From positions 1-11,419 of the forward strand of contig JAGAUM010000117.1 of assembly GCA_017620795.1 (NCBI GenBank): a DNA stretch of 11,419 bases, written 5' to 3'. Each line of letters begins with the position of its first letter. Within the stretch, counting starts at the first letter, position 1. The position numbers and the translations under genes were made by a program. A model generated the notes under the pieces. The model had not been told where the DNA came from and ran no database searches. It saw only the letters and a program-made list of their open reading frames with translations. This document shows positions 4,178-10,271 of this stretch, in pieces. Source of the stretch: Clostridia bacterium. GTDB lineage: Bacteria > Bacillota > Clostridia > RGIG8785.

Positions 4178-4195
4178 AATAAAGGAGTGTCAAAA

Positions 4196-5197
4196 ATGAC
4201 AACGACCCCGTTTTCCGCTTTCATTCGCACCGACATTTCAGAGCCGTCATTTTTATCGTCCACCCCAATGGCGTTCCATACGCTCTGCGGTGTGCCCATG
4301 TATGATTGGGTGCGAAGAGCGTGTATCGAAGCAGGCGCCAAGACCGTGACCATTCTTTCTGAAGGGGAGTCGCCAAAACAGGTAGAGGAACGGGCAATCG
4401 TCCTGCCTGCCAATATTCCGCTGATTACCCCTCGGGAGCTGTTGTTTTTTGTGGAGCATGAAACGGCTTTGGTTGCAGAATTTCCGCAGGATGCGGACAC
4501 CTTCTTTGTCCGCGACCGCGACACCTTAAATCAAGCAGAAGAACAGCTACGCAAGCGTATGATTCGTAAGCATCAGCAAAATGGCGTAACCATTCGGATT
4601 CCCGAGACGGTTACCATCGGCCCTGATGTCTTTATCGGACAAGATACCGTCGTTGAAGGCGGTTGTACCATTTTGGGTAACACCACCATCGGGAAAGAAT
4701 GTACCATCGGTGCATTTACCGAGCTTTTGGACATGACTGTTGGCAATCGGGTTAAAATCCGTCAGTCGGTTTTGGAATCGGCATCTGTCGGTTCGGACAC
4801 CACGGTCGGACCTTTTGCCTACATTCGACCCAACAGCCAAATCGGTGAAAGAACCCGCATCGGTGATTTTGTGGAAATCAAAAACTCGGTCATCGGCAAC
4901 GGTACCAAGGTCTCTCACCTTACCTATGTCGGAGACAGTGATGTGGGCGAGGGTGTGAACTTCGGTTGTGGCACGGTTACCGCCAATTATGACGGCAAGA
5001 ACAAGCACCGCACCACCATCGGCAATGGCGCATTCATCGGTTGCAATACCAACCTGATTGCCCCTGTTACCGTCGGTGACGGAGCAATGACCGCCGCAGG
5101 CTCCACCATTACCGATTCGGTTCCTGATGGTGCCATGGCAATCGCCCGTGAGCGGCAGACCAACAAAGTGAAACGCAGTCCGTTTCGGATTGATTAA
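4196..5197 (+). CDS. glmU: GlmU with intact acetyltransferase and collapsed uridyltransferase domain
   Basis: GlmU normally acetylates glucosamine-1-phosphate (C-terminal domain) and then couples it to UTP (N-terminal domain) to make UDP-GlcNAc. This protein has 333 residues against about 450 for the family. The left-handed beta-helix half (about 131-333) is complete, with counterparts of the E. coli catalytic residues: Arg211 (IRPN), Lys229 (EIK), His241 and Tyr244 (SHLTYVGD), Asn255 and NYDG (264-267). The N-terminal half is only about 110 residues. Where LAAGxGTRM should stand it reads [10 protein letters not shown]; the PKVLH lysine is Met25; the GDxPL metal-binding Asp is Asn73; the NDR metal-binding Asn is Arg106. 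Roughly 100 central residues are absent. Recognisable remnants ([33 protein letters not shown]) show descent from full GlmU. I infer an acetyltransferase-only enzyme. The start is the ATG at 4196 with AAAGGAG 8 bases upstream; an in-frame GTG at 4187 is part of that site. The gene keeps its usual place before prs. Confidence 0.9.
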
Positions 5198-5226
5198 ATA
5201 TTCAAAAGCAAACAGGAGGAAGAGTA

Positions 5227-6186
5227 ATGATCACACACGGTAAGAACATCAAAATCTTCGCAGCGAACTCCAACCCGGCTCTGGCCAAGGATATCGCGCA
5301 AATCCTCGGCGTCGGTGTCGGCGAATCGCAGGTAGGAAAGTTCAGCGACGGAGAAATCTTCGTTAACATTCGGGAGACTGTCCGCGGCTCGGACGTTTTC
5401 GTTGTCCAGTCGACTTCGACCCCCGTCAATGACAACCTGATGGAAATGCTGATTATGATTGATGCGTTCAAGCGTGCTTCGGCAGGACGCGTCACCGCAG
5501 TAATGCCTTATTTCGGCTATGCCCGTCAGGACAGAAAAGCAAAGGCTCGTGATCCGATCTCTGCAAAACTGGTTGCCGACCTGCTGACCACTGCAGGTGC
5601 AGACCGTGTTTTAACCATGGACTTGCACGCTGCACAGATTCAGGGCTTCTTCAATATCCCTGTTGACCATCTGTTAGGCGGTCCTGTTTTGGCTCCTTAT
5701 TACGTAGAAAAATTCCAGAACTGCGACCCCGAGGACGTTGTTGTTGTTTCTCCTGACTTGGGTAGCGTTACCCGTGCAAGAAACTTCGCACAGCGCATCG
5801 ATGCCAGACTGGCTATCGTTGACAAGCGCCGTCCCAAACCCAACGTTTGCGAGGTTATGAACATCATCGGTGAAATCGAAGACAAGCATGTCATTCTGAT
5901 TGACGATATGATTGACACTGCAGGTACCATCTGCAACAGCGCCAACGCATTAAAAGAACGCGGCGCACGTAGCGTATACGCTTGCTGTACCCACCCTGTT
6001 CTGTCCGGTCCCGCCATCGAACGGATTCAGGAATCCGCCATCGAAGAACTGGTTGTTCTAGATACCATCCAGCTTCCTGAAGAAAAGAAAATCGACAAGA
6101 TTAAGGTGCTGTCCATTGCTCAGGTATTTGCCGACGCCATCGACTGCATTTACGAAGACAAGTCGATTAGCACCGTCTTTAACTAA
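5227..6186 (+). CDS. prs: Ribose-phosphate pyrophosphokinase (PRPP synthetase)
   Basis: A 319-residue cytosolic enzyme that makes PRPP from ribose-5-phosphate and ATP, feeding purine, pyrimidine, NAD, His and Trp synthesis. Length and motifs are those of class I enzymes: KFSDGEIFV (38-46), the catalytic loop [18 protein letters not shown] (98-115), the metal/ATP site [11 protein letters not shown] (132-142), [11 protein letters not shown] (175-185) and the PRPP-binding loop [14 protein letters not shown] (222-235). The start at 5227 has AGGAGGA 6 bases upstream. It follows glmU by 29 bases and no terminator lies between them, so the two are co-transcribed. The hairpin 17 bases after its stop may reduce expression of pth and mfd. 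The ctc gene found between prs and pth in Bacillus is absent. Confidence 0.98.
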
Positions 6187-6246: not shown

Positions 6247-6822
6247 ATGAAACTGATTGTCGGCTTGGGCAACCCGGGGAGTGAGTACCAAAGTACCCGT
6301 CACAACATGGGCTTTGCCGCCATTGACTACATTTCTGAAAAACAGGGCATCTCTGTCAAAAAGTCCAAGCACCAAGCCCTTATCGGCGAAGGTACCTTGG
6401 GTGGTGAACGGGTGGTTCTGGCAAAACCCATGACCTACATGAACCTAAGCGGTGATGCTGTTTCTGCCTTAGCACGGTGGTATAAAGTGGAACCTTCCGA
6501 TATTCTGGTCATCTACGACGATATGGACCTTCCTGTCGGTCAGATGCGCCTGCGCCCCTCGGGAAGTGCTGGGGGACACAACGGCATGAAATCCATCATC
6601 CTGCGCCTCTCGTCCGACCAGTTCCCCCGCCTGCGTATCGGCATCGGTCGGAAGGAAAACAGCGACACCATCGACTATGTTTTAGGCAAGCTCAACCGTG
6701 AGGAACAGGAAATCCAGTTCAAGCTCTTAGGCGACGTTTGTGACGCTGTCGAGCTATTTGTAAAAAGTGGCATTGAACCTGCCATGAACCGTTATAACCG
6801 TAAACCGAGTAAAGAATCATGA
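6247..6822 (+). CDS. pth: Peptidyl-tRNA hydrolase
   Basis: A 191-residue enzyme that frees tRNA from peptidyl-tRNA dropped by stalled ribosomes. Family signatures are present: GLGNPGSEY (6-14) with Asn9, the catalytic His19 in TRHNMGF (17-23), KPMTYMNLSG (60-69) with Asn66, YDDMDLPVG (90-98) and GSAGGHNGMKS (106-116). The length is normal for the bacterial Pth family. GGAGG (6238-6242) lies 4 bases before the ATG. The stop TGA overlaps the mfd start in an ATGA arrangement, so mfd translation is likely coupled to pth. Confidence 0.97.
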   Translation: MKLIVGLGNPGSEYQSTRHNMGFAAIDYISEKQGISVKKSKHQALIGEGTLGGERVVLAKPMTYMNLSGDAVSALARWYKVEPSDILVIYDDMDLPVGQMRLRPSGSAGGHNGMKSIILRLSSDQFPRLRIGIGRKENSDTIDYVLGKLNREEQEIQFKLLGDVCDAVELFVKSGIEPAMNRYNRKPSKES

Positions 6823-9800
6823 ACTTTTTAAGCACACTTTTAAAAGACTACAGCCCCTTTGACGAAATCCGTTCGGGTATCGTCAAGGGTCAAACACCGA
6901 TAACTGTAACAGGGGTGACCGAATCACAAAAGGCGCACCTCTGTTTTTCGTTATTTGAAAGCGAAAACCGTTCTATGGTCCTTCTGACCCAGAACGAACT
7001 GCAGGCGCGTCGCATTTATGAAGACCTGTCCTTTTTTGCCCGTCTTTCGGGAATGGGGGAGCAGGTTCTGCTCTTTTTAGATCGCGAGCCTGTTTTTTAC
7101 GATGTGGAAGCCGTCGGCAACGATGTGAAGCGTCAGCGGATGCAGACCCTGTTTACCCTTTGCAACAGCGACGCTCCCTGTCTTTTGGTCTGCCCCATTG
7201 ATGCAGCCATGCGTCCTATTCTCCCCAAAGCCCGACTGTCCTCCTGCCTCCGTTCGTTTCAGGATGGGGATCGGGTGGACTTGGAAGAACTACGCCGCCA
7301 GTTTATCCTAGCGGGCTACCACCGTGAAGATGTGGTGGAAGGCCGTGGTCAGTTCAGCATCCGTGGCGGTATCGTAGACTTTTTCGGCTATGACACCGAA
7401 AATGGCATCCGTATCGAATTCTTTGACGATGAAGTGGACTCTATCCGCGCCTTTGATGTGGAGAGTCAGCTTTCCTATAAACGCTTGAAGCAAGCCACCT
7501 TGACTCCGGTTAGCGAAATCATCTACACCCGTGAGGAAGCAGAAGGCTTACTGGAGCGACTGGAACAAAAATCCGACGCTTATGCCGAGGATCTGGAAAA
7601 GATTGCCGAGCGCCACTATTTTCCGTCTTTAGACAAATACCATCCGCTGATTTATCCACAGCGTGTCAGCGTATTGGACTATATTGACGCACCGCTGGTG
7701 GTTTTGGACGAACCGCAAAAGCTCAACGATGCGGCAGAATCTTTCTGTTGGAGCGTGGAAGAAACCTTAAAATCCATGTTGGAAAAGGGCATTTTGGTTG
7801 AAATCTTTGACGGCTATACAATCCCTTATGGTGATTTATTAAAGCGCCTGCTTGCCCATCCTTTGGTGGGACTTGCGGCACTGCAACACCAGACCAATGA
7901 CTACCGCGCCAAGGCGTTGGTGGACTTTGCCACCAAAACGGTGCCCTCGTATCAGGGGAATTTCGAGTACCTGACCGAAGCCCTGCGCGCTTACACAGAA
8001 AGCAAAACCGCTGTGTTGTTATTAAGCGGTACCAAAGGCCGTACCGAAAAGCTGACCCAATCTTTGCAGGAAGAGGGCTTCTCTGCCTTTGAAATGACCG
8101 AACCGTACCGCCTCCCTGCCCGTGGGGAAATCGGCGTCTTACGCGGAAGCTTGCTCAAAGGCTTTGAATACCCCCATTTAGGCTTTGCGGTCATCAGTGA
8201 CACCGAAGCTTTCGGCAAGCAGAAAAAACGCAAAACCAAAAAGAAAAATGCCCTGCGCTCTTATCGTGACCTGTCGATTGGCGATTTTGTAGTGCATCAG
8301 AACCATGGCATCGGCCGCTATGTGGGCATCGAGCAGGTGGTTATCGAAGGAGTCACCAAAGACTATTTAAAGCTCCAGTACCAAGGCACCGATTTATTGT
8401 ATGTCCCCGTCAACCAGTTAGACTTTTTGTATAAGTATGTGGGTGGCGAAAACCAACGGATGAAGCTCAACAAGCTGGGCGGAACCGACTGGGCAAAGAC
8501 CAAAGCACGGGTTCGTGCTTCCTGTGAGGAGCTGGCACGGAATCTGGTGGCGCTCTACGCCGCACGGCAGAACGAAAGTGGCTATGCCTTCTCCGCCGAT
8601 ACCCCGTGGCAACGGCAGTTTGAAGAAACCTTCCCCTATGAGGAGACTGAAGACCAGCTTACCTGCATCGAAGAGGTCAAACGGGATATGGAAAGCCCTC
8701 GACCCATGGACCGTCTTTTGTGCGGTGATGTAGGCTATGGCAAGACCGAAGTCGCTTTGCGTGCCGCCTTCAAAGCAGTGAATGACGGCAAGCAGGTAGC
8801 CTATCTGGTACCTACCACGCTATTGGCACAGCAACAGTACACCAACTTCAAAGAACGGATGAAAGACTTCCCCGTCAAGGTGGAAATGCTTTCCCGTTTC
8901 CGTACCCCCACCCAGCAGAAAAAGATTGTTTCCGAAGTCCAATCGGGCGCCGTGGACGTGATTATCGGCACCCATCGGTTGCTTCAAAAAGACTTGGCGT
9001 TTAAGGATTTGGGTCTTTTGATTATTGACGAGGAGCAACGCTTCGGTGTTACCCATAAAGAAAAAATCAAGGAAATGCGTCGGGATGTGGATGTGCTGAC
9101 CCTGACCGCAACGCCTATCCCCAGAACCCTGCACATGGCGATGGTGGGCATTCGGGATATGAGCGTCATTGAGCAACCGCCCCAAGACCGTTACCCTGTC
9201 CAGACCTATGTGCTGGAATACAACGAGGGTATTCTGACCGATGCCATTGCCAAAGAAATTGCCCGTGGCGGTCAGGTCTATTACCTGTGTAACCGCGTGG
9301 GAAGCGTCGGCTCTGTTGCTGCACGCATCGCCAAATCCCTGCCCGATATCCGTGTTGCTGCCGCCCACGGTAAAATGGAAGAGGCGGAGCTGGAAAACAT
9401 CATGGGCGAAATGCTCAATGGCGAGATTGATGTATTGGTCTGCACCACTATTATCGAAACAGGTCTGGACATCCCCAATGTCAATACCATTATCATCGAG
9501 GACAGTGACCGATTAGGTCTTTCCCAGCTCTATCAGTTGCGTGGCAGAGTAGGGCGTTCCAACCGCTTGGCGTTTGCTTACTTAACCTTCCGCCGGGACC
9601 GTGTCCTGCAGGAAAATGCCGAAAAACGGCTACAAGCCATCCGTGAGTTTACCGAGTTCGGCTCGGGCTTTAAGATTGCTCTGCGAGACTTGGAAATCCG
9701 CGGCGCAGGAAACCTGCTGGGCGCTGAACAACACGGTCACATGGATGCAGTCGGCTATGACCTTTACTGTCAGCTATTAGAAGAAGCGGTCAAGACCGAG

Positions 9801-9962
9801 CAGGGCGAAGCACCGAAGCCTGCATTGGAAACCACTGTGGACTTGCAGGTCGACGCCTTTATCCCCGAATACTATATCCGCAACCATGAAGGGCGCATTG
9901 AGATGTACCAGAAAATCGCCAATGTCCAGAACGAGGAGGATGCGCAAATCGTGGAAGAGTAA
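6819..9962 (+). CDS. mfd: Transcription-repair coupling factor Mfd, prematurely stopped
   Basis: Mfd pushes or releases RNA polymerase stalled at DNA lesions and recruits UvrA. The reading frame encodes 1047 residues. In order: a UvrB-like N-terminal region (about 1-340, with VVEGRGQFSIRGGIVDFF at 172-189), a Lys-rich linker (468-477), the RNA-polymerase-interacting domain (about 485-545), then the RecG-like translocase with Walker A GDVGYGKT (636-643), DEEQ (737-740), SAT-like TATPIPRT (763-770), IIETGLDIP (878-886) and QLRGRVGRS (906-914). The protein stops at a TAA (9960-9962) just inside the C-terminal TRCF/D7 domain, which continues in the same frame downstream. The family length is about 1150. 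In E. coli Mfd, D7 is autoinhibitory, so this product would lack the brake, if the stop is real. The start overlaps the pth stop and there is no strong ribosome binding site of its own. Confidence 0.93.
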   Translation: MNFLSTLLKDYSPFDEIRSGIVKGQTPITVTGVTESQKAHLCFSLFESENRSMVLLTQNELQARRIYEDLSFFARLSGMGEQVLLFLDREPVFYDVEAVGNDVKRQRMQTLFTLCNSDAPCLLVCPIDAAMRPILPKARLSSCLRSFQDGDRVDLEELRRQFILAGYHREDVVEGRGQFSIRGGIVDFFGYDTENGIRIEFFDDEVDSIRAFDVESQLSYKRLKQATLTPVSEIIYTREEAEGLLERLEQKSDAYAEDLEKIAERHYFPSLDKYHPLIYPQRVSVLDYIDAPLVVLDEPQKLNDAAESFCWSVEETLKSMLEKGILVEIFDGYTIPYGDLLKRLLAHPLVGLAALQHQTNDYRAKALVDFATKTVPSYQGNFEYLTEALRAYTESKTAVLLLSGTKGRTEKLTQSLQEEGFSAFEMTEPYRLPARGEIGVLRGSLLKGFEYPHLGFAVISDTEAFGKQKKRKTKKKNALRSYRDLSIGDFVVHQNHGIGRYVGIEQVVIEGVTKDYLKLQYQGTDLLYVPVNQLDFLYKYVGGENQRMKLNKLGGTDWAKTKARVRASCEELARNLVALYAARQNESGYAFSADTPWQRQFEETFPYEETEDQLTCIEEVKRDMESPRPMDRLLCGDVGYGKTEVALRAAFKAVNDGKQVAYLVPTTLLAQQQYTNFKERMKDFPVKVEMLSRFRTPTQQKKIVSEVQSGAVDVIIGTHRLLQKDLAFKDLGLLIIDEEQRFGVTHKEKIKEMRRDVDVLTLTATPIPRTLHMAMVGIRDMSVIEQPPQDRYPVQTYVLEYNEGILTDAIAKEIARGGQVYYLCNRVGSVGSVAARIAKSLPDIRVAAAHGKMEEAELENIMGEMLNGEIDVLVCTTIIETGLDIPNVNTIIIEDSDRLGLSQLYQLRGRVGRSNRLAFAYLTFRRDRVLQENAEKRLQAIREFTEFGSGFKIALRDLEIRGAGNLLGAEQHGHMDAVGYDLYCQLLEEAVKTEQGEAPKPALETTVDLQVDAFIPEYYIRNHEGRIEMYQKIANVQNEEDAQIVEE

Positions 9963-10271
9963 TTGATTGACCGTTATGGTGACATTCCGCCTTCGGTTCA
10001 GAACCTCATCTGCGTTGCCACCATCCGCCATACCGCTTCGGCATTGGGTATCAGCGAAGTGACCCAAAAAGGGGAGCAACTGACCATCCGTTTTGCCGAC
10101 GAGCAGTTCTTAAGTCGGGAACAGATTACGGCACTGGTTTCCAAAGCCGACCGTAAGCAAAAGGTCATGGTCTGCCCTGGAAAATCTCCCTTCTTCCGTT
10201 TGCATTTGCTATCCCAGAACCAAGACCAGATTCTGCGTAATGTTACATTTCTGTTACAAGCGTTGAATTGA
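9963..10271 (+). pseudogene. mfd: C-terminal D7 (TRCF) fragment of mfd, detached by an in-frame TAA
   Basis: A 102-codon stretch, directly after the mfd stop and in the same frame, encodes the rest of the TRCF domain: LIDRYGDIPPSVQNLI, then a mixed alpha/beta region up to the TGA at 10269-10271. Together with the upstream part it makes a normal-length Mfd of about 1150 residues. The frame is intact on both sides and only one codon is wrong. Related proteins usually have an acidic residue before LIDR, so a GAA-to-TAA change would explain it. A TTG start at 9963 is possible, with only GGAAGAG (9953-9959) as a weak ribosome binding site. I read this as one broken gene, or a sequencing error, rather than two genes. 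Confidence 0.8.

Follow-up and report, generated by a model that had tools for sequence, protein, structure and literature searches.

GlmU is a textbook essential bifunctional enzyme of cell-wall synthesis and a drug target. The two domains of E. coli GlmU have reportedly been separated experimentally, and the halves are said to work as separate proteins. A second way of making UDP-GlcNAc is described in PMC10128056, where experiments show GlmR, assayed from B. subtilis, to be an accessory GlcNAc-1-P uridyltransferase in Firmicutes. In this work, we analysed a stretch of DNA of 11,419 nucleotides (the window) that carries a short glmU gene, and sequence comparison suggests that the activities of GlmU are very probably split naturally in this bacterium, with a monofunctional acetyltransferase GlmU encoded in the window and a uridyltransferase supplied in trans from another contig, C80, of the same draft genome.

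The glmU short form (positions 4196 to 5197, forward strand, 333 aa) is one uninterrupted open reading frame that begins with an ATG at 4196 and whose stop codon ends at 5197; a ribosome-binding-site-like motif, AAAGGAG, is read directly at 4181 to 4187 on the same strand, 8 bases before the ATG. Downstream, also on the forward strand, are prs (ribose-phosphate pyrophosphokinase, 5227 to 6186), pth (peptidyl-tRNA hydrolase, 6247 to 6822) and mfd (6819 to 9962), the last recognised from the translation of its open reading frame. We take prs to be the usual downstream neighbour of glmU and pth to be part of its usual context. The 333-aa protein belongs to the GlmU lineage, as seen from its position before prs and pth and from a GlmU fold along its whole length, and the reading frame, the length and the normal operon reported by a first-pass annotation of the window all agree with our results. 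The gene encodes a degenerate N-domain and a complete GlcN-1-P acetyltransferase domain: an eroded uridyltransferase (Rossmann) remnant (residues 1-100, positions 4196 to 4495, forward strand), a linker with a long helix (residues 101-130, helix at 108-128, positions 4496 to 4585, forward) that joins the remnant to the beta-helix and carries Arg106, and the left-handed beta-helix (LbH) acetyltransferase domain (residues 131-325, positions 4586 to 5170, forward). In the C-terminally longer homologues of clusters P0007-P0012, the protein ends in ...KQEEEK, and in the window the frame past the glmU stop (5195 to 5227) reads ...KQEEE over the ribosome-binding site of prs; the glmU frame of these homologues seems to overrun the ribosome-binding site of the next gene. 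Further downstream, mfd contains an in-frame TAA at 9960-9962 (forward) after 1047 codons, and Mfd-like sequence resumes directly in the same frame (9963 to 10271), which may reflect a natural nonsense variant, a pseudogene or a sequence error.

The acetyltransferase half of the protein is well preserved. It matched the GlmU models NF010934 (E 3.1e-98, residues 93-325) and TIGR01173 (E 6.9e-88, residues 100-324), with scores of 329.2 bits against a cut-off of 450 and 295.5 bits against 366.85, respectively, so that it falls below the curated whole-protein equivalog cut-off of both models. The S. aureus GlmU structure 9dqf matched residues 102-324 at E 4.9e-73, and the archaeal-type GlmU model TIGR03992 matched only at 6e-33. 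Arg211, Lys229, His241, Tyr244, Asn255 and Lys270 are invariant in an alignment of 44 homologues and correspond to E. coli positions 333, 351, 363, 366, 377 and 392 (structural alignment offset 121-122, rows 2oi6 and 4aa7), which we take to be catalytic residues; the first five had already been recognised as retained in the first-pass annotation. With its LbH repeats and all six catalytic counterparts, the protein is by sequence a member of the GlmU C-terminal acetyltransferases, and it is the sole strong match of this type in the genome, the other one reaching E 5.3e-5.

The N-terminal half is very different. We defined 15 key positions as the residues invariant in an alignment (A3) of 15 GlmU-type uridyltransferases, comprising six cis GlmU N-domains and nine stand-alone proteins; these positions span the Gly-rich loop as well as Lys, Gln, GT, GD, Gly, Glu and Asn positions. 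At these positions the window protein reads IESM---AN-----R against GGRKQGTGDGENNEN, i.e., 0/15, and thus the N-terminal uridyltransferase site of bifunctional GlmU (GxGT/KR loop, Lys, Gln, GTG, GD, Glu and Asn) is absent. Compared with the intact homologue P0117, the protein is without internal blocks of 32 and 91 residues (123 in total), which held the Q...GTGHAV loop and the sugar-binding part (GYGR, Glu, Asn, NAQGEYYLTD). According to PMC10128056, H. influenzae GlmU absolutely requires K25, Q76 and D105; their counterparts here are Met25 (in place of the PK Lys), a deletion and Asn73 (in place of the GD Asp), respectively, while the metal-ligand Asn of the uridyltransferase is replaced by Arg106. 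The replaced Gly-rich loop and the three substitutions are exactly as they had been described from the sequence; the loss of residues is also real, the earlier figure of about 100 being slightly low. Thus, the 333-aa protein is not a bifunctional GlmU by membership and, by inference, would work as the acetyltransferase half of GlmU.

The remnant nevertheless retains a recognisable shape. Among the matches listed, the first 100 residues were the best stretch of no Pfam family, and the best stretches of the NCBIfam LpxD models, which start at residues 46 and 74, were far weaker than GlmU. AlphaFold predicted a compact lobe (block pLDDT 81-97) with strands at 7-11, 51-54, 67-71 and 93-95 and helices at 35-45 and 79-88, and 316 of the 333 residues of the predicted fold align to GlmU structures. 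All 12 aligned short forms contain the remnant, with P24, P34, R41, C43, A46-G47-A48, P71 and P75-T78 invariant. For a test of constraint, we compared pairs of short forms with pairs of intact proteins over the homologous N-domain columns, binned by acetyltransferase identity. N-domain identity was 41.7% in short-form pairs versus 59.1% in intact pairs in the 70-75% bin, 42.6% versus 63.2% (means) at 75-80%, 54.3% versus 65.3% at 80-85%, and 62.2% versus 75.5% at 85-90%; in the two highest bins, each with one short-form pair, it was 57.4% versus 85.7% (90-95%) and 96.8% versus 98.1% (95-100%). Because the remnant diverged faster than the intact domain at matched acetyltransferase divergence, it appears to be under relaxed constraint, but the invariant motifs and the confidently predicted fold indicate that a residual structural role is possible. 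The earlier description of an unused domain therefore calls for some qualification. We read the remnant as a scaffold relic, for which a new docking or sensing role is possible.

The short form also exists beyond this genome. Besides the window's own cluster, P0002 (98% identity, 3 members), it occurs over its full length at 60-88% identity in ten others (P0003-P0012, 333-355 aa), which comprise 15 sequences from several sources; the close homologues form a series, P0002-P0006, at 75-98%. The window protein and these eleven clusters form one group in the acetyltransferase tree (SH-aLRT 100). A profile search of genome contigs with the N-terminal alignment A2 gave three loci, matching residues 91-157 at most, and no short form; the 59 others from the search for relatives share no more than the class with the window's genome. 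Searching relatives for the short form, as had been proposed, thus returned ten further clusters, and the domain loss proved recurrent across the class, as described below.

The cell would need another GlcNAc-1-P uridyltransferase, as the first-pass annotation had argued, and at the sequence level a candidate is present. The window's genome (G000), a draft assembly, amounts to 1.20 Mb on 253 contigs and is 62.8% complete; its nucleotidyltransferases comprise three matches to PF00483 and three to PF12804, two of them the same. The search for a stand-alone nucleotidylyltransferase that had been suggested found one on contig C80, where a GlmU-type uridyltransferase of about 245 aa (245-250 aa) is encoded. 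It matched the GlmU profile NF010934 at 5.2e-77 over the N-domain half and PDB GlmU N-domains at 1.5e-55, other families reaching 4.6e-8 at best, and its identity to the six cis GlmU N-domains of A3 is 39-45%. It has 15/15 key residues by construction, being itself a row of A3, whereas the profile and PDB matches are independent. Its homologues form a series, P0122-P0125, at 83-96%, and the sources of its relatives include Oscillospiraceae and Ruminococcaceae. Three other proteins were not good candidates for a GlcNAc-1-P uridyltransferase: that on C63, whose best NCBIfam match was RmlA-long, under its cut-off; that on C112, which is GlgD; and that on C42, which is IspD. Because glmU and the C80 gene are on different contigs of a draft genome, their link rests on binning; the similar GC contents of the window (50.4%) and the C80 locus (49.3%) lend weak support to a common genome. 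Directly downstream of the C80 uridyltransferase gene is a GlmM/PGM-type mutase gene, cut by the contig end, whose product is best matched by archaeal-type GlmM (2.5e-66), and a related mutase adjoins the stand-alone uridyltransferase in 10 of 19 loci, with none within the fetched flanks of the other 9. The genome has two GlmM-like mutases (L002, 3-983, reverse strand, and L196), a full bacterial GlmM on C2 and the archaeal-GlmM-like one on C80; our guess would be that the latter serves GlcNAc-6-P salvage.

In the proposed scheme, glmU would now encode a monofunctional glucosamine-1-phosphate N-acetyltransferase, whose beta-helix domain would convert GlcN-1-P and acetyl-CoA to GlcNAc-1-P. The N-terminal domain, which no longer has its nucleotide loop, metal ligand or sugar-binding lobe or the Lys, Gln and Asp of catalysis, would stay as a folded scaffold lobe, and the separate GlmU-N-type enzyme from C80 would form UDP-GlcNAc from GlcNAc-1-P and UTP. 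The stand-alone copy presumably came first and erosion followed later. From sequence, we infer both activities and that the stand-alone enzyme would use GlcNAc-1-P.

To see how widespread this loss is, we surveyed 391 class genomes including the window's own, with at least 80% completeness asked of the others. An acetyltransferase was detected at E<=1e-38 in 288/391 genomes (first 5 candidates per genome scored) and a GlmU-type uridyltransferase at E<=1e-25 in 243/391 (first 7 candidates scored). Hand comparison of the acetyltransferase, uridyltransferase, UAP1-like and GlmR tables, from which all genome counts come, gave 65 genomes with the acetyltransferase and no GlmU-type uridyltransferase detected at E<=1e-25; 30 of the 65 were inspected, and an intact cis domain was absent in 30/30. 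Altogether we inspected 90 acetyltransferase genes, which were the best-scoring loci plus chosen suspicious ones and hence not a random sample that could give a prevalence: 48/90 had an intact cis uridyltransferase domain (14-15/15 key residues) and 42/90 had none. The 42 consist of 23 eroded genes, 11 without an N-domain and 8 with an N-terminal extension (seven of family f39, plus G166) judged unrelated from reading and key-residue scoring. In family f39 (L131, L146-L151), this extension is about 100 aa long and unlike uridyltransferase, and the genomes carry the stand-alone uridyltransferase. When 27 database proteins, picked for short length or closeness, were added, no scored row had 11-13/15 key residues. 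Nearly full-length but mutated forms had 9-10/15 at 421-423 aa (P0096, P0059, G004), eroded forms 0-7/15 at 324-451 aa, and acetyltransferases without an N-domain were 212-240 aa long. Relatives at many stages between an intact domain and none are therefore found, in line with the gradual erosion that had been suggested. A quick tree of 117 acetyltransferase domains, in which 38 of 113 inner branches are weakly supported, requires 18 switches between intact and lost, counts of this kind carrying no direction; after branches under 80, 90 and 95 were collapsed, an approximate script of our own counted 16, 10 and 8. Since the tree calls for 18 switches, and for 8 with strongly supported branches only, the comparison indicates that the loss of the uridyltransferase half is recurrent in the class.

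The same split is seen in relatives. The stand-alone type occurs in 12/42 genomes whose cis domain is not intact, counting the window's, versus 1/48 with an intact one, the exception being G046 (Fisher p 5e-4), a test that takes genomes as independent although 7 of the 12 are from one family (f39) and the genomes are best-hit or suspicious picks. Relatives of the stand-alone enzyme are found in G167 (58% identical) and G258 (57%), whose GlmU acetyltransferases are without any N-domain. In family f10, G009 has only an intact GlmU, G046 an intact GlmU and a stand-alone enzyme, and G098 and G166 an acetyltransferase without a recognisable N-domain and a stand-alone enzyme; the acetyltransferases of G046, G166 and G098 group at SH-aLRT 95, and the family is possibly a series of acquisition and then loss. 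In the two genomes whose stand-alone enzyme is closest, G374 (61%) and G390 (58%), the bacterial-type GlmU acetyltransferase is absent, its best matches reaching 6e-12 and 8.7e-14, so the uridyltransferase is paired with something else there. Six genomes (L152-L157), G374 and G390 among them, carry the stand-alone uridyltransferase and no bacterial GlmU acetyltransferase; in these, an open frame of 226-248 aa comes next as a beta-helix match. Three of these frames were scanned (L152, L154 and L157, 219-233 aa); they match the acetyltransferase half of TIGR03992 at 2e-40 to 3e-42 and are apparently a stand-alone form of the acetyltransferase half of archaeal-type GlmU.

However, loss of the cis domain does not in general require the stand-alone type: of the 42 genomes in which that domain is not intact, 30 gave no GlmU-type uridyltransferase at E<=1e-25. 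An A3 profile search of the 65 genomes matched 59 at E<=1e-6. The matches listed were either the eroded GlmU of the genome itself or other open frames, about 195-860 aa long; none of those listed was full-length below 7e-22, the best full-length one being on G287:C1 (287 aa, 7.1e-22), so this search gave no general substitute. GlmR was detected in 192/391 class genomes and in 23 of the 65, and its absences are unreliable, as the control missed B. subtilis; in the window's genome it gave no match, with 62.8% completeness, 7 of 14 controls detected and the B. subtilis control missed. The UAP1-like family PF01704 was found in 55/391 genomes and 3/65 (0/14 controls detected) and was rejected as a general replacement; it gave no match in the window's genome, which is incomplete. 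Neither GlmR nor a UAP1-like enzyme was detected in 41 of the 65 genomes, both searches having imperfect controls. Among these genomes there are probably several replacements, or one not yet recognised.

Other explanations of the window's locus should be weighed against this background. An assembly error, frameshift or pseudogene confined to this one genome is extremely unlikely: the assembly is a draft and the neighbouring mfd has an in-frame TAA, but glmU is a single uninterrupted frame with a ribosome-binding-site-like motif, its product has a confidently predicted fold with 316/333 residues aligned to GlmU structures, and the short form recurs, besides P0002, in ten clusters of several sources, so the earlier judgement that this is not an assembly gap holds. 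It is also very unlikely that the substrate of the short protein is another amino-sugar phosphate, outside UDP-GlcNAc synthesis; a change of role could go with the loss of one activity, but the genome has no other strong match of the GlmU acetyltransferase type, the gene lies before prs and pth, and all catalytic counterparts are retained in its product. An unlikely alternative accepts the acetyltransferase and assigns the uridyltransferase step mainly to GlmR (YvcK) or to an unassembled gene, with the C80 enzyme making a different UDP-sugar together with its mutase. The experimental demonstration of GlmR as an accessory GlcNAc-1-P uridyltransferase in Firmicutes (PMC10128056) and its detection in 23 of the 65 genomes favour the GlmR variant, and a C80 mutase despite the full GlmM on C2 would fit a separate pathway; on the other hand, GlmR was not detected in G000, of which about 37% may be missing, by a search that also missed the B. 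subtilis control, and the C80 protein is a far better match to GlmU than to other nucleotidyltransferase families.

The remaining alternatives concern the remnant, and the first is compatible with the preferred split into a monofunctional GlmU and the C80 enzyme. There is a small but appreciable chance that the remnant is re-used as a docking or sensing lobe that would, for example, hold the stand-alone uridyltransferase near the acetyltransferase trimer or bind UDP-GlcNAc for feedback. Its retention with invariant residues in all 12 short forms, its predicted folding and the complete absence of the N-domain in other lineages (11/42) are consistent with re-use, but it diverges faster than the intact domain, as under relaxed constraint, and the invariant motifs resemble scaffold residues of the old fold. 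Rather unlikely, as a whole, is the broader proposal that GlmU dissolves recurrently in the class with several replacements, apparently the GlmU-type stand-alone enzyme, GlmR, a UAP1-like enzyme and perhaps one not yet known, and that the dead half here persists as a folded pseudo-domain newly employed in scaffolding or regulation, for which docking of the uridyltransferase that acts in trans is one possibility.

If the recurrent loss is true, annotation and metabolic models assign a uridyltransferase activity that is absent, and compounds that inhibit the GlmU uridyltransferase would have no effect by way of GlmU in these bacteria. For example, the 381-aa P0021 is named bifunctional by its source; at G007 (L005), this protein retains 3/15 key residues. 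The graded stages from intact to fully trimmed would also offer a natural series for studying the break-up of a bifunctional enzyme and the use of a dead domain. In addition, a further uridyltransferase may await discovery in the 41 genomes without a detected GlmU-type, GlmR or UAP1-like enzyme, the GlmR and UAP1-like searches both having imperfect controls. Among open-access PMC titles and abstract openings, a sample that says nothing on the literature beyond, we found no description of this GlmU loss.

Compared with bifunctional GlmU (TIGR01173, NF010934; PDB 9dqf, 1hm8, 2oi6), the window protein has no uridyltransferase site and 123 fewer residues, and it also differs from archaeal-type GlmU (TIGR03992), being of the bacterial GlmU type. 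Archaeal-type GlmM (TIGR03990) is the known enzyme to which the C80 neighbour mutase scores best. GlmR/YvcK is similar in being a second GlcNAc-1-P uridyltransferase besides GlmU (PMC10128056), but it is of a different, CofD-related family (TIGR01826), whereas the C80 protein is of the GlmU type. The arrangement resembles the separated E. coli GlmU domains in having the two GlmU halves as separate proteins; unlike there, the probable split here is natural, a remnant persists in cis, and the trans enzyme shares just 39-45% identity with the cis N-domains of A3.
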